Assembly (NCBI GenBank): GCA_001769925.1
Contig: MEPT01000029.1
Span: 13,278 to 22,020, forward strand
Reading direction: 5' to 3'
Length of the DNA: 8,743 nucleotides
Source: Bdellovibrionales bacterium RBG_16_40_8
GTDB lineage: Bacteria > Bdellovibrionota > Bdellovibrionia > Bdellovibrionales > UBA1609
A program made the position numbers and the translations under genes. Below, piece by piece: positions 620 through 8,743 of this stretch. Each line of letters opens with the position of its first letter. The first letter of the stretch is position 1. The notes under the pieces are model-generated. The model had not been told where the DNA came from and searched no databases. It was given only the letters and a program-made list of their open reading frames with translations.

Positions 620-1650
620 AGCACAATTTTAATTTAAAAATATCTCTAACTCTATCTCTAATCATTTCGCTTATGCTACCTTATGGCGCAATGGGAGATA
701 CGACTACTGATAAAGAAATTGTTGGCGTATTTGCGCAGGCCTATCTTCAGGAGCAGATTAAGTCACAGATAGCAAATTTCTTGGACAATAATCCACAAGT
801 TGTGTCATCGGTAAATCCATATGTGGGTACAGAAGCGATGAAATTTTTAGGAAAAATAATCGCTGCATATAGTTTGCTAACCGCGAAAACCGACAAAGAC
901 AGAGCATGGGCGGCTTCTCACTTAATTTTATCTCCAGAGCCAACTACAGCACTCATTATGGTGGCCGTTCAGATTGCCGACACTATTGTTACCCTGAAGC
1001 AACAACGAAATCTGATGAAAATTTATGAGCGAATCGATGCTATTAATGCAGATACGATGCGTAATATGAGAAATATTCTTACCTATAAATACAATCATCG
1101 AATTCAATATGTACAAAATTTTATGACAACAATGTATGAGATAAATTTAGCCTATAAAGATATTGGAAAATTCATTGGTCTAGAGAAAAGCGATGAACTG
1201 AGAAGAGACTTATTGGAGAGCCAAGTTGAATTGCTGCTTGATCTTTTATTTAAGATGCAAGATTTGTTTGTTCAATTGGATATGGACTTATATCATCTTG
1301 AAACGTGGGTTGACATTGAGGAGTTTAATCAGGCAATGCCAACAGAATACCAAGCTCCGTCTCTTAATAAGTTAAAGCAGCTCAGCGCAGGTTTTCAAAA
1401 TTCAAGCCTAGCGATAGAGAGACTTCGCGACAGTGTCTTTCAACTATTTTTTTCGGTGAAGGGTGAGGAGTTTGTGCGCCAGCCGCGCGAAAAATTGTCT
1501 GAGTATCGAAAAGAATTACGCATTTATGCGCGCTGTGCAAGTGTTGTGAACCGATATAAAATGAGCCACGTTTTAGATATCAATAATGAAGTTGAAGCAT
1601 CTGATCTGGTGCCAAGTTGCAGGGAGAAGTACAATGAGATCTTTAAATAG
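616..1650 (+). CDS. Exported helical protein of unknown function, accessory to the toxin operon
   Basis: 344 residues. The N-terminus has a classic Sec signal peptide: basic MKHNFNLK, a hydrophobic core at about 8-23, and a likely cut after A25-M26-G27. The mature protein is almost entirely predicted amphipathic helix. A small-residue hydrophobic stretch at about 111-127 (TALIMVAVQIADTIVTL) could be a membrane-interacting or pore-like helix. Long heptad-like helices follow at about 128-235. Two cysteines near the C-terminus (C307, C335) could form a disulfide in the periplasm. The start ATG overlaps the upstream stop by 4 nt, and the end overlaps the toxin gene start by 17 nt. Hydrophobic-then-helical organisation at about 110-180 loosely resembles residues 126-200 of the toxin downstream, so the two may be partners or share a stalk architecture (inference). 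No named family recognised. Confidence 0.85.
   Translation: MKHNFNLKISLTLSLIISLMLPYGAMGDTTTDKEIVGVFAQAYLQEQIKSQIANFLDNNPQVVSSVNPYVGTEAMKFLGKIIAAYSLLTAKTDKDRAWAASHLILSPEPTTALIMVAVQIADTIVTLKQQRNLMKIYERIDAINADTMRNMRNILTYKYNHRIQYVQNFMTTMYEINLAYKDIGKFIGLEKSDELRRDLLESQVELLLDLLFKMQDLFVQLDMDLYHLETWVDIEEFNQAMPTEYQAPSLNKLKQLSAGFQNSSLAIERLRDSVFQLFFSVKGEEFVRQPREKLSEYRKELRIYARCASVVNRYKMSHVLDINNEVEASDLVPSCREKYNEIFK
1621..1626 (+). promoter_or_regulatory. Ribosome binding site deciding the toxin start at 1634
   Basis: AGGGAG lies 7 nt before ATG 1634, inside the end of the upstream gene. The longer in-frame ATG at 1586 has no such site and would bury the signal peptide behind 16 extra residues. Confidence 0.75.
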
Positions 1651-3109
1651 TTCAACGCGAATAAGTTTACGAATCACAAGTTTTATATTGTCGATGTTAT
1701 TTTGCGTAAATGCATTTGCTATAAAACTAAAAATTGGCGATCCAAAATTTATACTAGTCGTAGAATCTACAGCTATTGGTGAAACGGGTTGGATTCGAAA
1801 TGATGACACGGGTATGTATCATTTTTGTCGCCTTGAGAAAAAGTGGCATGATCAAGAGGGCAATCTGTGGATTGAAGTTAAGAAAGTTGATAATAAATTT
1901 ACGGTAAGAATGGATGATGATGCGATTACAATTTCCCCTTCGCGTGATCAAAATTTTACAATCGATATCGGTGAGTTGGATTTTTCACCCGGTAGTTTTA
2001 TCGTCGGTTTAGATACGGCTGCCTTGGCAGCAATTCAGTACGCATTTATTAAAAACTCGGGAGCTCTTGAAGATATCCAAAAAAGCATGCTTATTATGCA
2101 AAAATTGAGAATGCAAATGGGTGAACACATAAAGCTCATCGAGTCTGCTCAGTTTAATTTAGCTAGTAATATTTTGCAGTTGAAAATGATGACAGAAAAC
2201 TTTGCTGAGTTGCCAAATATTATCTCGACTGGCTTGAGTAACTCGAATGTTAAAGTTTGGGTTGTATCAAATGTGCCAGAGAATAAGGCGGCCCTTGCAA
2301 CATACAAATGGTCGTCTGACGACACTGATTTTATAGAGCGGGCCAATGCTATTCGCGATCAGCTCATTAATAGTAAAGTCGATGATGCCATGGCGCAGAA
2401 GTACTACGATATTTCAACAGAATCACTGATTCAGGCAGACCAAAATAGTTTCTTTGGCAATAAAGAGCAGGCGTTTTTTTTATTAGATATTGCGAAAGTC
2501 GCAGCAGACGTTCTGGTTGGTTTAGATCCGTTTACTGGAATGGCACGAAGCATTTATGAAACGGTAATGGGTACAAATCTAATAACTGGTGCTGAGCTAT
2601 CGAACAGTGAAAGAGTTTTGGCGGCTCTTGGAATTCTATCTGGTGGTTACGCCTTAAAGGCATATAATATTATTAAAGTGCTGCGACCGATGGCGAACAA
2701 GTTAGGTTCGGTGACTATAAGTTCTTATAGGTTTATTGAGAAATTTCTAGAGAAGACTGGGCATGGATTTCAATTGGTTTCCAGCTCAGATATTCGCAAA
2801 GTCAATTTTCGCGGTTTAAGGGATCCCAAGTGGGGACTCAATGCTCGTCATTTGAATAAGCATTTTTTCGGTGACAGTAAGTACGCATTGAGGACTATAG
2901 ATCCGGGCGGTAATTCTGATAATTGGATGACGAATCTAATGGACGTGATTCAGCGTCCAGTTACAAAGATTACTGCCAATGGAAAATTAGATATAATGCA
3001 CTATTATCCGCGTTCCGATGGCAATGGATTTTATAAATTGGGGGTAAGATTAAGTAAAAATTATAACAAGACCTTTGATCTTGTAACAGTGTTGACGAGA
3101 CAAGATTAA
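1634..3109 (+). CDS. Exported polymorphic-toxin-like protein with pre-toxin TG domain
   Basis: 491 residues from the ATG with a good ribosome binding site. Residues 1-29 are a Sec signal peptide ending A27-F28-A29. About 30-125 is beta-rich, with a W/C-containing small domain. About 126-290 is mostly helical with a small-residue hydrophobic start. Residues about 290-345 (DPFTGMARSIYE, then GTNLITGAELSNSERVLAAL) match the PT-TG pre-toxin domain: an entry hydrophobic G-D-P stretch, a central T318-G319, then a Gly-rich hydrophobic helix. In known polymorphic toxins PT-TG sits directly before the variable toxic tip. The tip here is about 385-491, with H406-L-N-K-H410, R420, W431, H456 and a closing T485-V strand. 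This arrangement resembles small BECR-type (barnase/EndoU/RelE-like) RNases, so an RNase tip is my inference, not proven. A Sec signal in place of a T5/T6/T7 leader is notable. A cysteine-rich candidate immunity gene follows 37 nt later. Confidence 0.82.
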   Translation: MRSLNSSTRISLRITSFILSMLFCVNAFAIKLKIGDPKFILVVESTAIGETGWIRNDDTGMYHFCRLEKKWHDQEGNLWIEVKKVDNKFTVRMDDDAITISPSRDQNFTIDIGELDFSPGSFIVGLDTAALAAIQYAFIKNSGALEDIQKSMLIMQKLRMQMGEHIKLIESAQFNLASNILQLKMMTENFAELPNIISTGLSNSNVKVWVVSNVPENKAALATYKWSSDDTDFIERANAIRDQLINSKVDDAMAQKYYDISTESLIQADQNSFFGNKEQAFFLLDIAKVAADVLVGLDPFTGMARSIYETVMGTNLITGAELSNSERVLAALGILSGGYALKAYNIIKVLRPMANKLGSVTISSYRFIEKFLEKTGHGFQLVSSSDIRKVNFRGLRDPKWGLNARHLNKHFFGDSKYALRTIDPGGNSDNWMTNLMDVIQRPVTKITANGKLDIMHYYPRSDGNGFYKLGVRLSKNYNKTFDLVTVLTRQD

Positions 3110-3146: not shown

Positions 3147-3530
3147 ATGGAGAGCATTGTGAAATATCAAAAATTTGTTTGTCCTTGCTGTGGTTATGAC
3201 GGTCTTGATACGAAGCCTTATAAAGATATTCCCAATCCACCTTATCCGATTAATTTAACTCCCCCCTACTCCAATCATTGGGGGGAGGGGTCGTATGATG
3301 TTTGTTTATGCTGCGGTTTTGAGTATGGGTTAGATGATGAGCCAGGCCCAGGACTAAAACCGGATTCATTTGAAAGTTACTTAAAAAATTGGGTTCAGAA
3401 TGAAAGTTGCAAATGGTTTGAGCCTAAATCCAAGCCGACCGATTGGGATATTGTAAAACAATTGGAAGCAGCCGGAATTTCAGTGCCCGAGTACATTCGT
3501 CTAGCCCGACAACTCACTGGAAAAAAATAA
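3147..3530 (+). CDS. Small CPCC/CxCC zinc-ribbon-like protein, candidate immunity protein
   Basis: 127 residues with no signal peptide, so cytosolic. Two cysteine knuckles, C12-P-C14-C15-G and C53-L-C55-C56-G, are spaced as in a zinc ribbon. They are followed by an acidic Gly/Pro turn (DDEPGPG, 63-69) and a helical tail. The opening resembles the Cys-rich CPCC family of small bacterial proteins. The gene lies immediately behind the toxin on the same strand, the usual position of an immunity gene. The immunity role is inference from position. The start is uncertain: ATG 3147 has only a weak upstream site, while GTG 3159 is preceded by GGAGAG at 3149-3154 with good spacing and would remove four residues (VKYQKFVCPCC). 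Confidence 0.8.
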   Translation: MESIVKYQKFVCPCCGYDGLDTKPYKDIPNPPYPINLTPPYSNHWGEGSYDVCLCCGFEYGLDDEPGPGLKPDSFESYLKNWVQNESCKWFEPKSKPTDWDIVKQLEAAGISVPEYIRLARQLTGKK

Positions 3531-3799: not shown

Positions 3800-4117
3800 T
3801 TAGGCCACCTCAATTTTTAGTTCAGAATTGGGATGGAGACGGGCCAAAAATTTGACTAGACGGTCGATTGTGAACTCCTCGAAATGGTAATGAACTACTT
3901 TGCTTACCAATGCTTCGCTTTCATCAATCTTCTCTGCGAGAGCGCGTTGAGAAAGTTCATGTGCGTTCATATAAATCACAATTTTTTGGCATATTGAGTG
4001 TTTGATTCTATCTACCGGGGAGGCATTTTCAGAAAGTGGCTTAGATGCCATACCCTTTGAGAGCTCTTTTCTCATTTTTTTAAGTTGTTTTTCTGGAGGA
4101 AAATTATTTTTTTTCAT
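3800..4117 (-). CDS. XRE-family antitoxin, second gene of a toxin-first TA pair
   Basis: 105 residues. After a basic, probably flexible N-terminus (1-35), residues about 40-95 form a helix-turn-helix of the Cro/C1 (XRE) type: LSQRALAEKIDESEALVSKV, then FTIDRLVKFLARLHP. The last strand-like segment (ELKIEVA) is typical of HigA-type antitoxins. It probably binds and neutralises the upstream gene product and represses the operon. The ATG at 4117 lies inside the end of the toxin gene (14-nt overlap) with a strong AGGAGA site at about 4121-4126 that is itself part of the toxin's last codons, so the two are tightly coupled. Its likely operator is the palindrome at 4442-4459. The family call is firm; the HigA label is by analogy. 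Confidence 0.83.
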   Translation of the reverse strand: MKKNNFPPEKQLKKMRKELSKGMASKPLSENASPVDRIKHSICQKIVIYMNAHELSQRALAEKIDESEALVSKVVHYHFEEFTIDRLVKFLARLHPNSELKIEVA

Positions 4118-4424
4118 ACTTTCTCCTTTTTACTCGAAATGCATTAATAACGCCTAAAAAATCGTCGTGAATGTAAATGACAAGCACAAGTCGATGCGGT
4201 GATTTGTCTATAATAACCGGCTCAACCCTAAAATATTGATAGCCATCCTCTTCTCTGTCGATCGGAAGTATCTCGTTGTTAAGTGTTTTAACTAACTCCA
4301 AGATCTTTCGATCATCGACTGTTGCAGAATGCTTTGTCTTATAATGCTGATCAATTATGACTCGATTGAGTTTTCTGCCATTAATTGTGATCTTAAGTTG
4401 ATATTCATTCCGCGTGTCCATCAC
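4104..4424 (-). CDS. Probable TA toxin, RelE/HigB-like size and position
   Basis: About 105-106 residues (MMDTRNEYQLKITI). The core reads VIIDQHYKTKHS, then an acidic helix (ILELVKTL), then YFRVEP and RLVLVIYIHDDFLGVINAFR, ending very basic (RVKRRKYEKK). An alpha/beta fold, strand-rich C-terminal half and basic tail fit small RNase-like toxins. The ID-HY-KH motif with a closing GVINAFR resembles an uncharacterised toxin family often next to XRE antitoxins. Family membership is from memory and not verified. Translation can begin at GTG 4424 or ATG 4421, two consecutive start codons with no Shine-Dalgarno. The predicted promoter places the transcript start on them. It is the first gene of the pair and overlaps the antitoxin by 14 nt. 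Confidence 0.68.
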   Translation of the reverse strand: MMDTRNEYQLKITINGRKLNRVIIDQHYKTKHSATVDDRKILELVKTLNNEILPIDREEDGYQYFRVEPVIIDKSPHRLVLVIYIHDDFLGVINAFRVKRRKYEKK

Positions 4425-4429
4425 GAGAA

Positions 4430-4458
4430 AGATTATCTGAGTTTGACAAATTTGTCAA
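4430..4458 (-). promoter_or_regulatory. Promoter of the - strand TA pair, predicts leaderless mRNA
   Basis: On the - strand a perfect -35 TTGACA (4458-4453) is followed after 17 nt by TAATCT (4435-4430), a fair -10. GATAAT at 4437-4432 is an alternative at 15 nt. Transcription would begin at about 4424-4421, on the start codons themselves. The -35 lies in the palindrome, so a bound antitoxin would block polymerase. Confidence 0.6.
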
Positions 4459-4459
4459 A
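4442..4459. promoter_or_regulatory. Perfect 18-bp palindrome, probable antitoxin operator
   Basis: TTTGACAAATTTGTCAAA is its own reverse complement over all 18 bases. It lies 18 nt from the toxin start codon and covers the -35 box, the classical position for TA autoregulation. Confidence 0.7.
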
Positions 4460-4460
4460 T

Positions 4461-4498
4461 TGGCGTGGGATGCGAGACGATCTTCGCAACTTTCTGCT
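4461..4498 (+). repeat. 38-bp direct repeat, left copy
   Basis: 35 of 38 bases match 8091-8128 in the same orientation. The three differences are A/C, C/T and C/T. In one frame both copies read WRG(M/L)RDDLRNFLL, with two of the three changes silent and the third M/L, so the repeat probably derives from coding DNA. This copy stays open to a stop at 4572-4574 but has no start of its own. Confidence 0.8.
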
Positions 4499-4589: not shown

Positions 4590-4789
4590 ATGATTCGACG
4601 TCGCACGGCCATCTATTTTAAAGATTCTCAAAGTAAGTCTGAGCCTGCCCGGGAATGGCTTGAAAAGCTGAAGGATCGGATCGCTCAGGCGGCATGGAGA
4701 TGAGAATTCCTGTCGGGCCAGGCTACAGATTGTACTACGCGTTCGATGGGCAAGAAGTAAGAGAGGTTAAATATGGCACGCGGAACTAA
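4590..4789 (+). pseudogene. RelE/HigB-like toxin remnant with deletions and frameshift
   Basis: An ATG at 4590 opens 37 codons with PAREWLEKLKDRIAQA, the usual N-terminal helix of HigB/RelE-like (phage Gp49-like) toxins, then stops at 4701-4703. The conserved middle strand continues in another frame from 4694: MEMRIPVGPGYRLYYAFDGQEV, matching the ElRi-GPGYR-YY core. It ends at 4787-4789 inside the antitoxin start. What is missing is the segment between the helix and the GPGYR strand (about 25-30 codons in the family) and the LLCGGDK...DI tail between GQEV and REVKYGTRN. The total is about 66 codons against about 100-115 for intact members. The overlap with the antitoxin start is preserved, so this is decay in place. 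Almost certainly inactive. Confidence 0.82.
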
Positions 4790-5072
4790 ATTTCAGACAG
4801 ACTTAGCGAAGAAGCTTCTTGATCCGGATTTTGCAGCACATTTTTTGGCTGCTGCGATAGCAGAAGGGGATGAAGAATTTTTGAACGAAGCACTTGCGAA
4901 AGTAATCAAGGCACATGGCGCGACGAGAGTTTCAGAGGATGCGGGAATCGCTAGGCAGGCTTTGTACAAAATGATTTCTGGTGAAGGAAATCCTTCATTT
5001 AAAAATGTAAATAAATTGCTCGAAGCGGTTGGTCTTGAATTGACGATCAAATCAAAGAAGCGCGCATCGTAA
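4773..5072 (+). CDS. HigA-like addiction-module antidote, orphaned antitoxin
   Basis: 99 residues. Residues 15-45 (LLDPDFAAHFLAAAIAEGDE) and the following helix-turn-helix at about 46-88 (VSEDAGIARQALYKMI, then a turn ending NPSFKNVNKLLEAVGLEL) are the signature of the HTH 'probable addiction module antidote' family that pairs with Gp49/HigB-like toxins. The ATG is preceded by GAGAGG at 4761-4766. The reading frame is intact from start to stop although its toxin is broken. It may survive as a transcriptional repressor or as an antidote against related toxins elsewhere (inference). Likely binding site: the palindrome at 4548-4570. Confidence 0.88.
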   Translation: MARGTKFQTDLAKKLLDPDFAAHFLAAAIAEGDEEFLNEALAKVIKAHGATRVSEDAGIARQALYKMISGEGNPSFKNVNKLLEAVGLELTIKSKKRAS

Positions 5073-5240: not shown

Positions 5241-5735
5241 TTACTTTAAAAGCCAACTGATAAATGGGCCAAACGCGTTCAATCCCATATTGAGTGTTTG
5301 CTTAGATAATGAGCAGCAGCTTTTTCTGATAAAAACCTTTTCAATTTTTCCGCTATCACCAGGCACAAGTGTTAAAATCCAATCTGCGCTTCCCCGATTT
5401 GTTAGTCGATAGGTAAAGTTTGAATCAGTGACGTAATAATCACCAGTTTCTTCCCCAAGAATATCAGGAATATTGTGATAGTCGATTTTCAGTAAAACTT
5501 GACTAGAAATCAGGTCGACAACCATTTGTGCGCGATCTTGCTCAGAACCGGACTTAAAACTTTCCGATGTAAATGGCCTTTGGGACCACAACAGGCGAGC
5601 CTCCCAAAGGCTTAGGTTATTATTGTACCAATAAAAACAGGAGAATAATACAGCTAGAGCGAATAGTCCTATTGTGGTACGAAGCAATGCTCGAGTGCAA
5701 AAAAATAAAATTGAGCGAAGTGACTTATTTTTCAT
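5241..5735 (-). CDS. Membrane-anchored protein with a BamE/SmpA-like periplasmic domain
   Basis: 164 residues. A basic N-terminus is followed by one membrane segment at about 18-37 (LRTTIGLFALAVLFSCFYWY), giving N-in, domain-out topology. The rest follows a pattern seen in small envelope proteins: RPFTSESFKSG, R68-x-x-M71-V-x-D74-L, then I-P-x-I-L-G94 and Y100-Y101, then strands with W119-I-L-T-L and I131-E-K-V-F. That is the helix-LGxP-strand order of BamE/SmpA/OmlA-like folds (structural analogy, not proven). Paired cysteines C140-C141 lie near the end. The start ATG overlaps the upstream lipoprotein stop by 11 nt with no clear ribosome binding site, so translation probably depends on the gene before it. 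It is the last gene of the four-gene operon. Confidence 0.78.
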   Translation of the reverse strand: MKNKSLRSILFFCTRALLRTTIGLFALAVLFSCFYWYNNNLSLWEARLLWSQRPFTSESFKSGSEQDRAQMVVDLISSQVLLKIDYHNIPDILGEETGDYYVTDSNFTYRLTNRGSADWILTLVPGDSGKIEKVFIRKSCCSLSKQTLNMGLNAFGPFISWLLK

Positions 5736-7083
5736 TATTTAAAATTCTCAAATTCCCGTTGATAATTTCATTGGACGCTTTTTGAAATAGTTTTTCGTTT
5801 TCGAATGAGCCAGTGTTTAAAAGACTTTTAGCCGCTATAATGCCAAGTTCATTGTTAAACTCATCCATCTCTTTCTCGATACGTGGTTGCCTTGGATTTT
5901 GTTCGTGTGCGTTAAGAAATTCACGAGCAGAAGATTCATTTAGATCTCGAGTAATAAGGCCAGACCAAACATAGTGCCTAAACGCATCAGCTTTTCCATT
6001 AACCCCGCTTTGGGGGTAGAGCTTTTCTGCATTATTTTCGGCAATCATTGCATTGTAAAAAACAATAGCAGATTGAATAGGATATTTTTTAACTAGAGTT
6101 TTCTCTGAATCATTTAATGTCGGATACTGGGATGCCATATACCCCAAAAGTTTTAACGAGAACTCCTCAAGTATCTTTTGAATTTCATCAAGAGGGGGCA
6201 TTGTTGAAGCTAAAATAATGGGCTGAACATCGGACCTAACGGGATTAAGAAAGTAGTCCGAGACGGCAATGCGTTGACTCGTGTTTTCAGGATTTATGAA
6301 TGTGATAGTTTGTGACTCGAAATCGTGGCTAGTAGTTAGGGCTAGAATTGGTGTTTTCGGTATGCGTGAGGCGAAATAGTTAGTTGGTAATTTTTCTTTT
6401 GATCTTAACGATTCAATGCGTTCTTTGTAAGCGGCAAATTCATAGTATTGGCCCGTCACAAGACTTTTAGCGTCTTTTATTTCTTGTGGGAGAATTTCAT
6501 CTATAATTTGCGTTCTTAAACGAGAGGGTAGGATAAACTTGGCATTCCGATCTGCTTTATTTAAAAATTTCTTAAGATTTTCCGGGTAGTCTTCATAATG
6601 GGTGCGATTTTCCAGGTTCCAGATGAGCGTCTGTGCTGTAGGTGCATCTAGCTGGCTTAAATTTATGAGTGGAATAATTTGTTTTATCAATTGAATATCT
6701 GGCAACCCCTGAACCCATTGAAAAATTTCGTTTTGAGTTGGGATAGCTTTCTTGCTGGATGCGCAAAACGAATTAAATTTCAAGGTGGTCTTGGTTCTTG
6801 CTGGAAATAGAATTCCCTGTTGGTCTGTTCTTGTAATGTTGTAGAATGCGATCAGAACTTTAATAAATTTTCTTTGGTTTTCGGGATTATTTAAGTTGCC
6901 AATTTTTTTTATTTGCTGGCGAACTTTATCGGGGGTGCTAAAATCGACTTCGGTCTCGTAGTTTGGTTTATAGTCATTGAAAATGATATCGCCGCCGATA
7001 GGTTTTGAAGCGCAGCTTGGCAATAAATTTAATAATATTAAAATTATCAGGAGTTTGAGTTTAACGTGGAGGGGGCCTTTCAT
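5725..7083 (-). CDS. Large lipoprotein with a conserved DAFRH/HE/MD-NN C-terminal domain
   Basis: 452 residues. The signal peptide carries a basic start, a long Leu/Ile core (8-21) and lipobox L21-P-S-C24. The N-terminal 330 residues are mixed helix and strand with no family I recognise. Residues about 355-415 hold a compact motif set: N362-G-K-A-D366-A-F-R369-H370, W373, A392-H393-E394, M406-D407, N410-N411, G414. This order (ADAFRH..W, then AHE, then MD..NN..G) is a domain I recall at the C-termini of polymorphic-toxin and effector-like proteins, possibly catalogued as DUF6973 (name not verified). The invariant His/Glu/Asp set suggests a hydrolase, but the activity is unknown to me. AAAGG lies 6 nt before the ATG. 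The start overlaps the nucleotidyltransferase stop as ATGA and the end overlaps the next gene by 11 nt. Confidence 0.82.
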   Translation of the reverse strand: MKGPLHVKLKLLIILILLNLLPSCASKPIGGDIIFNDYKPNYETEVDFSTPDKVRQQIKKIGNLNNPENQRKFIKVLIAFYNITRTDQQGILFPARTKTTLKFNSFCASSKKAIPTQNEIFQWVQGLPDIQLIKQIIPLINLSQLDAPTAQTLIWNLENRTHYEDYPENLKKFLNKADRNAKFILPSRLRTQIIDEILPQEIKDAKSLVTGQYYEFAAYKERIESLRSKEKLPTNYFASRIPKTPILALTTSHDFESQTITFINPENTSQRIAVSDYFLNPVRSDVQPIILASTMPPLDEIQKILEEFSLKLLGYMASQYPTLNDSEKTLVKKYPIQSAIVFYNAMIAENNAEKLYPQSGVNGKADAFRHYVWSGLITRDLNESSAREFLNAHEQNPRQPRIEKEMDEFNNELGIIAAKSLLNTGSFENEKLFQKASNEIINGNLRILNNEK

Positions 7084-7631
7084 TTGCGGCCTTTCTTGGT
7101 ATTTAGACCTTTCAGCTTATTTTTGAACTCGTCAAACTTGGTTTTTTCACCTTCCAGCGCGGACCATTCTTCAATTTGTTTGATTTTAATAGGATGAAAA
7201 TTTGCAACTAACAGAGCCTGATCCAAGCTCTGTCGATCTCGCCAATGATAAAAGGCTGCAAGCCGGTCCATGACACATTGAGTGGGTGATAGCAGTCGTA
7301 GTGTAAATCCCTTGCGTTCAATTTTTCCATCAGGCTTCATTGGTGAGTTGCCAATAATCAATTGCGACCCTGTAAATTCAACAGAAAAGTCAGTGTCATC
7401 GTGGTAAAAGTCTTTGCCCACATTTTTAAAGCCAAGGTTTTTCATGACTTGAGTAATGGTTTTGTGATCAGTCGCGCTTAAAAAGTCAGCATCCATAGAT
7501 ACGTATTTGCCAGTCGAATAAATGGCAACCACTGCGCCACCCGTAAGAATGACGTCAATATCATGCTTTTTAAGTTCGGCGGCTACAGCAATCGCAAATT
7601 GCTCGAGAGTCATTTTTTTTGTTAGCTTCAT
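7080..7631 (-). CDS. Nucleotidyltransferase, AbiEii/DUF6036-like, possible TA component
   Basis: 183 residues. The pol-beta-type nucleotidyltransferase core is visible: T30-G-G32-A-V-V-A-I-Y38, then M46-D47-A-D49-F, then D79-T-D81-F as the third carboxylate region. The block SPTQCVMDRLAAFYHW (115-130) followed by RDRQSLDQALLVA is a signature of small NTases beside winged-helix regulators. All presumed metal-binding acidic residues are present, so it should be active. Proteins of this kind act as toxins that add nucleotides to RNA or protein in AbiE/MenT-like systems (family knowledge; role here inferred). The start overlaps the regulator stop as TAATG, and the stop overlaps the lipoprotein start as ATGA. 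Its product is cytosolic. Confidence 0.85.
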   Translation of the reverse strand: MKLTKKMTLEQFAIAVAAELKKHDIDVILTGGAVVAIYSTGKYVSMDADFLSATDHKTITQVMKNLGFKNVGKDFYHDDTDFSVEFTGSQLIIGNSPMKPDGKIERKGFTLRLLSPTQCVMDRLAAFYHWRDRQSLDQALLVANFHPIKIKQIEEWSALEGEKTKFDEFKNKLKGLNTKKGRK

Positions 7632-7960
7632 TACAGTTTTTTTCCCGTACGGCGTGGTCGTCTGCGCTGACGATAGTATTGTTCAATTTCACTTGCAGAG
7701 AGCAGTGAAAGAGATTTTTCAAGCAAAGCCTCGAGTTCTTTTTTGTACGGGCATCTGGGGCTTATTTGAAACATACGAATATTTCCGACGTTTCGTCCCA
7801 CCAATACGCCGCCATTCTCCATTTTTATGAGTTGTTTTCGAACTTGAGATTTAGGTAGATCAAATGTTTGGGCAATTCCTGAGGTGTGACCCTCGCCATA
7901 ATTGGCTATATAAAGTAAAACGCGTTCCGCAGTTTGATTGCCAAATAGTGTTTCAAGCAT
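7631..7960 (-). CDS. Winged-helix regulator, probable antitoxin/repressor of the operon
   Basis: 109 residues. Residues 1-66 form a winged helix: helix 1 (ERVLLYIANYG), helix 2 (TSGIAQTFDL), recognition helix (KSQVRKQLIKMENGGVL), and wing (VGRNVGNIRMFQIS). This is an ArsR/MarR-like arrangement. The C-terminus is helical and ends strongly basic (YRQRRRPRRTGKKL), suited to nucleic acid or toxin contact. It is the first gene of the operon, directly before the nucleotidyltransferase. Such pairs occur as TA-like modules in which the wHTH protein represses and antagonises. There is no Shine-Dalgarno before ATG 7960. The candidate -10 box lies 11 nt upstream and inverted repeats lie at 7964-8000. 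Confidence 0.82.
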   Translation of the reverse strand: MLETLFGNQTAERVLLYIANYGEGHTSGIAQTFDLPKSQVRKQLIKMENGGVLVGRNVGNIRMFQISPRCPYKKELEALLEKSLSLLSASEIEQYYRQRRRPRRTGKKL

Positions 7961-8000: not shown

Positions 8001-8090
8001 GTAGTGCATATAAAAATCAAGAAATAGTAATGTGGCCCTTGTCGGGCCCGCGCTATGAAAAAGATTAATAATTTCAATAGGTTATAAATT

Positions 8091-8128
8091 TGGCGTGGGC
8101 TGCGAGATGATCTTCGCAACTTTTTGCT
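8091..8128 (+). repeat. 38-bp direct repeat, right copy
   Basis: Matches 4461-4498 at 35 of 38 bases. In the WRGLRDDLRNFLL frame it stays open to 8277-8279 but is closed by a stop at 8085-8087 and has no start, so it is a fragment and not a gene. It lies in the 285-nt gap 7961-8245, which otherwise holds the operator region and two GC-rich hairpins. Confidence 0.8.
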
Positions 8129-8228
8129 GTCAGAGCGAAACTATTCGATGCAGAATTTCGCGGTCAAGTTTGAAGAGTTGCGACAATCGAGCAACAAAAG
8201 GATTTATTTAATGCAGAAATCACATGGC

Positions 8229-8245: not shown

Positions 8246-8512
8246 TCACGCATTCTTAAAGTGGGAACATTCTGGCTGAACGGTTTCTGTTGAAAAGCAT
8301 TGCCATGCATTGAATGACTCCCAATAGGGAATGGCATCTAGTGCGGAACTTAAAACAGATAATTCCTCTCGATCAAGAACTTCCATCGCTTGGTCTTCGG
8401 GGCTTAACAGGTCGTAGTGATTAATTGTTGTCATAGATAAACAAGAAATGCTCGCCGTTACAATAATAAATATCCTGAGCCGTTTATTCCAAACGAGAGA
8501 TGTTTTGGTCAT
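8246..8512 (-). CDS. Small exported or membrane-anchored protein of unknown function
   Basis: 88 residues. A basic N-terminus (NKRLR) precedes a hydrophobic segment at about 13-30 (RIFIIVTASISCLSMTTI), either a signal peptide or an N-terminal anchor. The SISC sequence is a poor lipobox because -3 is Ser, so lipidation is doubtful. The remainder is acidic (SPEDQAMEVLDREELSVL) with W64, W70 and two cysteines C72 and C82 that could pair in the periplasm. The start overlaps the upstream stop as ATGA, so it is coupled to the lyase-like gene. A periplasmic partner or immunity protein for that enzyme is a possible reading but is inference only. No family recognised. Confidence 0.68.
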   Translation of the reverse strand: MTKTSLVWNKRLRIFIIVTASISCLSMTTINHYDLLSPEDQAMEVLDREELSVLSSALDAIPYWESFNAWQCFSTETVQPECSHFKNA

Positions 8513-8743
8513 TTCTGCGACTCCTTCAATTTGTCATAGTAATCGATAACCCTATTTATAAGTTTTTTGCCTTTTTTCTCAGCCTTGTATTTTTGAATGG
8601 CCTCATTCCAAGAGATTTCGCGTCCAGCAGCCGAATTCGCAATTTGTTTTTTGCGAAAGAGCCACCGGATGCCTGCGCAGATATTTAGATTTGGATCGGA
8701 CATATCTACCTGATCAACATGTACGAGTTGATCCTTGAGTTCG
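8509..8743 (-). CDS. C-terminal part of a lysozyme/transglycosylase-like protein, cut by window edge
   Basis: The frame is open to the right edge, so ATG 8703 is probably internal and 77 residues are the C-terminal end of a larger protein. The visible stretch DQVDMSDPNLNICAGIRWLF, followed by SWNEAIQKYK, resembles the end of SLT-type lytic transglycosylase or lysozyme-like domains (DP..NI.AG..WL, then a helix with W..AI..YK). The catalytic Glu would lie outside the window. The tail is very basic (KAEKKGKK). The domain call is from a short motif and is moderate. It is followed by a coupled small exported protein (ATGA overlap). Confidence 0.55.
   Translation of the reverse strand, partial: ELKDQLVHVDQVDMSDPNLNICAGIRWLFRKKQIANSAAGREISWNEAIQKYKAEKKGKKLINRVIDYYDKLKESQK

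Follow-up and report, generated by a model that had tools for sequence, protein, structure and literature searches.

The question raised by this locus is whether four overlapping genes of a Bdellovibrionota bacterium form one system or merely lie side by side. The window, i.e., the whole stretch of 8,743 nucleotides (nt) that was analyzed, comes from Bdellovibrionales bacterium RBG_16_40_8 (G000:C29:13278-22020; draft genome of 2.47 Mb). Its minus strand carries, in order of reading, genes for a winged helix-turn-helix (wHTH) regulator, a nucleotidyltransferase (NTase), a lipoprotein and a membrane-anchored BamE-like protein, and the three junctions share 1 nt (TAATG), 4 nt (ATGA) and 11 nt, respectively, in exact agreement with the overlaps listed in the initial annotation. 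That annotation had suggested a cytosolic sensor or modifier linked to an envelope effector, possibly in a single defence or abortive system. Our comparisons of gene order indicate that the row is instead two independently assorting pairs, the wHTH-NTase pair and the lipoprotein with its small downstream gene. It is likely that the first pair is toxin-antitoxin (TA)-like and that the second encodes a lipoprotein toxin which would grip other cells through a Cys107-Gln287 thioester and attack head groups with its C-terminal tip, the BamE-like protein providing self-protection. The features of the row are as follows.

7631..7960, minus strand: ArsR/TrmB-like wHTH regulator, 109 amino acids (aa), with only weak matches to helix-turn-helix domains
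7080..7631, minus strand: NTase, 183 aa, with a GG...DxD...E motif
5725..7083, minus strand: lipoprotein, 452 aa (lipobox, N-module and DUF6973 tip), read from its sequence as a polymorphic toxin
7012..7083, minus strand: signal peptide plus lipobox, up to and including Cys24; the +2 residue is Ala, not Asp
6169..7011, minus strand: N-module of the lipoprotein (residues 25-305), a candidate thioester domain (TED)
6763..6765, minus strand: codon of Cys107, the predicted thioester cysteine (SFCA; [FYL]C[ALV] in the family)
6619..6633, minus strand: helical motif Gln151-x-x-x-Trp155, like the TQxx-hydrophobic-W motif of TEDs
6223..6225, minus strand: codon of Gln287, the predicted thioester glutamine (VQPII; hydrophobic-Q motif of TEDs)
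5767..6099, minus strand: DUF6973 tip of lipocone/Wnt-like fold, a predicted lipid-head-group toxin
5241..5735, minus strand: transmembrane (TM) protein, 164 aa, membrane anchored and BamE-like, the likely cognate immunity protein

The NTase was detected in 36 of 140 genomes of the window's order, and 30 loci, one from each of 30 genomes, were compared. A wHTH gene adjoined the NTase at every one of the 30, while a relative of the lipoprotein followed at only three, i.e., the window, G066:C79 and G001:C310. Among the 27 loci lacking it, L025, L044 and L041 cover just ∼0.4, 0.2 and 0.6 kb past the NTase, and a 23-residue match at L030 (E 0.95) was not counted. Conversely, the pair was located upstream of the lipoprotein N-module at 3 of 21 loci. 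At G066:C79 (L029) the lipoprotein was 79% identical to that of the window (residues 11 to 372) and the TM protein 94% (residues 40 to 164), whereas the wHTH and NTase proteins were only 36% and 45% identical, indicating that the two pairs had moved independently of each other. Both genes of the toxin pair carry damaging deletions at this locus (L029/L135), the lipoprotein in its tip and the immunity gene at its start. In G001, the wHTH-NTase pair is 124 nt from the lipoprotein, and at L015 a HEPN-MNT pair stands where the window has its wHTH-NTase pair, with an identical 4-nt overlap.

Other genes occupied the position directly upstream of the N-module lipoprotein at single loci among the 21: the HEPN-MNT pair of L015 (4-nt overlap), a Fic gene (4-nt overlap, with a decayed lipoprotein), a fragment resembling the C terminus of Fic (4-nt overlap; BLAST E of 3e-7 to that Fic gene, with no match in a Pfam scan), a MazE-like gene followed by a PIN gene (14-nt gap), a BrnT gene with its partner (205-nt gap) and a DarT gene with a macro domain (414-nt gap). 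TA labels of neighbors were assigned by eye, except for those scanned with profiles. At L172, a MazF/PemK-like gene (by eye) lies 7 nt upstream. No TA-like gene was seen by eye directly upstream at 12 of the 21 loci, and TA-like genes were also present downstream of these lipoproteins, indicating that the genes lie in TA-rich islands and not in fixed operons. A functional requirement for the upstream TA genes was, for the same reasons, not adopted.

The sequence comparisons indicate that the lipoprotein belongs to a polymorphic-toxin family, with a constant N-terminal part, exchangeable tips and a small downstream gene that varies with the tip. Its lipobox reads LLPSC, and Cys24 was present in 83 of 85 aligned rows, none of those 83 having Asp at +2. 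Searches for relatives returned full-length matches, tip-only matches and three loci that matched only within residues 53 to 317; the latter contained open frames of 472 to 602 residues with a PT-TG pretoxin domain and different C termini. Other C termini were joined to the N-module at further loci and in further proteins. When the last 110 residues of proteins longer than 400 aa were compared by BLAST, clusters of 37 (DUF6973), 21, 15, 4, 2 and 1 were obtained, the singleton being a shortened protein; one N-module is therefore combined with at least five dissimilar tips. Small genes followed directly in most cases and differed by tip type. For tips other than DUF6973, they were of other kinds and by eye lacked a signal peptide (L009, L012, L126-L129, L131 and L133), while L011 had no small gene after its tip. 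None of the tips was named by an NCBIfam scan of ten toxin proteins. The suggestion in the initial annotation that the 452-aa lipoprotein is an envelope effector looks right.

The family is patchily distributed. Its profile matched 37 of 143 genomes in a search of the class, tip-only proteins included, and a second profile matched 50 of 290 genomes of the phylum, many of them through PT-TG or the tip only; some genomes had several paralogues. Organism names were available for 16 loci, of which 10 were labelled as Bdellovibrio-like groups, 3 as Deltaproteobacteria and 1 as Defluviitaleaceae (27% identity, E 5e-4); the remaining 2 were labelled Streptomyces griseus, a label that is probably wrong.

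Pfam DUF6973 (PF22322) matched residues 329 to 439 of the lipoprotein with an E value of 1.2e-18, and the DAFRH, HE and MD..NN motifs noted initially are the core of this family. In an alignment of 18 sequences His370, Glu394, Asp407 and Asn410-Asn411 were invariant. The three charged residues correspond to the active-site pattern of lipocone domains, His (H2), Glu (H3) and Asp (H4), and the tip has a helical core of the Wnt type, as in the lipocone Wnt/SAA clade. At the position of the sNxxGR motif of H4, MDxxNNxxG was present in 16 of the 18 sequences and the R in none. A Foldseek search with the lipoprotein model gave no match at an E value of 0.001 or better among the 50 of 94 matches listed; BteO, a type VI secretion system effector of Bacteroides fragilis (9uu0), ranked first and aligned with the tip region only. 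A small open reading frame was detected within 60 nt downstream of DUF6973 at 22 of 30 loci, the window included, and 21 of these aligned as one diverse family. PF04355 (BamE) matched 1 of the 21 (E 6.8e-7) and no Pfam family matched the TM protein of the window, so that the label BamE-like holds through the family and not for the window protein itself. A membrane-anchored BamE-like immunity protein is reported for lipocone toxins (PMC12419801). By analogy with the lipocone literature, we infer that the tip attacks phospholipid or polyprenol-linked head groups. The BamE-like protein is likely the cognate immunity to the DUF6973 tip. At L051, L053, L056, L170 and L171, a DUF6973 gene is followed by a gene that is not BamE-like, which from its motifs we take to be of exonuclease/phosphatase or metallophosphoesterase type.

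The N-module was aligned from 34 proteins with different tips, then from 76 and finally from 85. Exact duplicates, eight fragments or weak matches and one broken copy had been left out before the 76-row count, and the nine rows added later comprised two copies of earlier rows and seven new ones (27 to 43% identity to the nearest). Cys107 was present in 84 of 85 rows, and Gln151, Trp155 and Gln287 were each present in all 85. The mature module contained exactly one Cys in 83 of the rows, P0029 having none and L130 two. The tip of P0029, the sole exception for Cys107, is truncated at its end as well, as would be seen if residue and tip had decayed together. Among 37 representatives thinned at 50% identity, conservation of 95% or more was reached by five columns only, C107, P115, Q151, W155 and Q287. 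Cys107 was preceded by F, Y or L and followed by A, L or V and then mostly by N, S or D, with A in 9 (76 rows). Gln287 mostly had V or I before it, with Gly or Ala in some distant rows, and mostly P or R after it, followed by I, V or L. In the Gln151/Trp155 motif Thr was not conserved, and Asn mostly followed Trp. In a model of residues 1 to 313 (pLDDT 90.1), a strand (97 to 107) ends at Cys107, a helix (147 to 158) holds Gln151-Trp155, and Gln287 precedes a strand (289 to 291).

TEDs of Gram-positive adhesins are described as having [YFL]C-hydrophobic-hydrophilic on a strand, TQxx-hydrophobic-W on a helix, in most but not all TEDs, and hydrophobic-Q-hydrophilic-hydrophobic-hydrophobic on a strand, with identities between solved TEDs of as little as 12% (PMC4450167). 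The order and secondary-structure context of Cys107, Gln151-Trp155 and Gln287 are the same. Twenty TEDs retrieved with PF08341 served as a positive control; the Cys was recovered in all 20, the W in 15 and the Q in 14. Structure comparison of the N-module model placed solved TEDs within the first ten matches, as weak matches of low Z in which the residues of the thioester bond apparently line up (Gln287 with Gln267, Gln261 and Gln575 of solved TEDs). Similarity was not detected at the profile level: a Pfam scan of the N-module gave no TED match, hhalign against the 20 TEDs gave scores that were neither significant nor above those of controls, NF012162 matched one of ten toxin proteins at E 0.085, and PF08341 found nothing in the genome of L095. 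In Foldseek, the model had no match at an E value of 0.001 or better, and no TED, among the 50 of 63 matches listed. The conserved residues lead us to predict that the N-module is a thioester domain with a Cys107-Gln287 bond serving for covalent gripping of neighbors. The lack of a conserved His column, the best being occupied in 42 of 85 rows, led us to reject a cysteine protease or transglutaminase site at Cys107.

G31, D47, D49 and E85 of the NTase were invariant in 23 aligned sequences. The window NTase alone had no confident Pfam match; scanning of the alignment members gave more, with DUF2204 matching 18 of 23, NTP_transf_5 9, AbiEii 4 and DUF6036 4 at E values of up to 1, the best AbiEii match having an E value of 0.0017. 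Searches of PDB sequences with NTase, wHTH and N-module profiles gave weak or chance-like matches only. In G001 the NTase has lost an internal segment containing the third acid while the wHTH is intact, a pattern that is expected if the NTase is a toxin and the wHTH its antidote. The pair is likely a separate TA-like module, with the NTase as toxin and the wHTH as antitoxin or repressor. This agrees with the TA-like reading first given to these two genes alone, as does the invariable adjacency of the pair and the GG..DxD motif with its third acid. The AbiE system, a type IV TA system, consists of a wHTH protein, AbiEi, and an NTase, AbiEii. The window pair shares with it the regulator-NTase order and the catalytic NTase motif, but just the 4 of 23 NTases mentioned above reach the AbiEii profile.

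Several other genes of the window are of TA or toxin type. A second secreted polymorphic toxin with a PT-TG domain (E 7.1e-9) is encoded at 1634-3109 (plus strand) and is followed at 3147-3530 (plus strand) by a likely immunity gene of 127 aa, which shows a weak CPCC-like cysteine motif (E 0.024). A HigBA-like pair (by eye) is located at 3800-4424 (minus strand); a similar pair in G032 (L005 2114-2758) shares 11 nt with the 5′ end of a short DUF6973 gene. At ∼4590-5072 (plus strand) an HI1420-type antitoxin (PF21716, E 3.9e-18) lies behind a seemingly broken RelE/HigB-like toxin gene. A small gene pair at 8246-8512 and 8509-8743 (minus strand), one member of which is perhaps lytic-transglycosylase-like (by eye), recurs on contig C3 (L018 3473-4650), which also bears copies of a repeat present on both sides of the four-gene row.

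8087..8182, plus strand: 96-nt repeat, 5′ of the wHTH gene
4452..4498, plus strand: 47-nt copy of the 96-nt repeat, on the opposite side of the module

This repeat, with a core of 39 nt and a length of up to 96 nt, has five copies in G000, in one orientation on contigs C3 and C29 and near TA-like genes, and one copy is also found 5′ of the wHTH gene in G001. The copies are similar when translated and are perhaps a remnant of the end of one gene.

Internal thioesters are used for covalent capture by complement, alpha-2-macroglobulins and Gram-positive adhesins. In E. coli, lipoproteins without Asp at +2 are sorted to the outer membrane, and by this rule the lipoprotein would be predicted to reside there. 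A thioester at the cell surface would then react with amines of a touching cell to form a covalent bond, and the tip would be delivered and act on the envelope of the target, while the membrane-anchored BamE-like protein would block the tip in the producing cell. Where the small gene has no evident signal peptide, as judged by eye, the tip probably acts in the cytosol. We lean toward a general form of this proposal, namely, that Bdellovibrionota possess contact-dependent surface-lipoprotein toxins whose thioester head welds to a neighbor or prey cell and whose swappable tip, here a Wnt relative stripping lipid head groups, is then delivered.

A toxin-immunity pair in which the N-module serves for packaging or anchoring as a new kind of domain, with Cys107, Gln151, Trp155 and Gln287 structural or otherwise catalytic, would account for the absence of a profile-level TED match, the low structural Z to TEDs and the lack of any TED among the Foldseek matches listed, all of which weigh against a thioester. 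Since a Cys protease or transglutaminase-type site does not agree with the single invariant Cys, the two invariant Gln and the absence of a conserved His, and since motif order and register agree with those of TEDs, we regard this alternative as unlikely, though it deserves to be taken seriously. A housekeeping role of the lipoprotein and its BamE-like neighbor, as factors that remodel the lipids of the cell's own envelope, is highly improbable; lipid metabolism is also a role of lipocone domains (PMC12419801), but the patchy presence described above, the swapped tips, the pretoxin domains of relatives, the degraded copy in G066 and the multiple paralogues do not fit such a role.

A single defence or abortive system of all four genes, with the wHTH-NTase pair as controller or modifier of the envelope pair, draws on the overlap at every junction, the occurrence of the pair before the lipoprotein in three genomes, the Fic, HEPN-MNT, PIN, BrnT and DarT-type genes upstream of other members and the match of the wHTH to a defence candidate (PADLOC PDC-M05A, E 3.7e-9; the NTase matched a type II methyltransferase model, E 0.0068). 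The order was, however, not conserved: 27 of 30 pairs had no lipoprotein in the DNA compared, so that regulator and NTase commonly occur without envelope genes, an outcome that the initial annotation had itself named as refuting its proposal, and 18 of 21 lipoprotein loci had no pair. Moreover, the wHTH-NTase pair was replaced where the toxin pair was retained, and neither the lipoprotein nor the TM protein had any PADLOC match. By these counts the proposal is largely refuted; it was rejected, and we consider it very improbable. The linkage of a cytosolic sensor or modifier to an envelope effector in one defence system is likewise unsupported.

The reading as a thioester-gripping lipoprotein toxin can be set beside known systems. 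SitA lipoprotein toxins of Myxococcus have a variable toxin tip, a cognate immunity gene and TraAB-dependent outer-membrane exchange. A lipoprotein with a variable tip and an immunity gene is common to SitA and the window; we know of no thioester-like motif in SitA. With the lipocone (Min-Wnt and allied) polymorphic toxins of Burroughs, Nicastro and Aravind 2025 (PMC12419801), the lipoprotein shares a Wnt/SAA-type fold, His-Glu-Asp with NNxxG, a lipobox and an adjoining BamE-like immunity gene. The accessible text of that paper describes a cystatin-like N-module but none of thioester type, and its main text does not contain the word nucleotidyltransferase. The TEDs of Gram-positive TIE adhesins (Walden 2015, PMC4450167) have in common with the N-module the [FY]C, QxxPhiW and PhiQ motifs and the predicted surface location, and TIEpLS20 of Bacillus conjugation (PMC8092201) acts between bacterial cells, as proposed here. 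The window family differs in being a lipoprotein of a Gram-negative phylum with toxin tips and not a wall-anchored stalk protein, in its Cys-Gln spacing of 180 residues, compared with 129 to 153 in the solved TEDs considered, and in the lack of profile-level similarity to TIE adhesins and TIEpLS20. The accessible parts of PMC8092201, PMC9210967 and PMC12617251 tell of no TED in a Gram-negative organism or with a toxin; the alpha-2-macroglobulin of E. coli (PMC4498604) is an example of a thioester protein from a Gram-negative bacterium, but no adhesin. Our literature search found no paper with DUF6973, with BteO and Bacteroides fragilis, with a thioester domain and a polymorphic toxin, or with an internal thioester and Bdellovibrio.

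These comparisons correct the view of the locus, in that the upstream TA-like genes are exchangeable neighbors and no parts of the toxin system. With its thioester signature, the N-terminal module of this Bdellovibrionota toxin family suggests a simple way, open to testing, in which a toxin on the cell surface could be fixed to a neighbor. If the prediction is true, this would be, as far as our literature search reaches, the first thioester adhesin outside Gram-positive bacteria and the first with a warhead; it would tie bacterial Wnt relatives to thioester capture and represent a new way of toxin delivery for bacteria.

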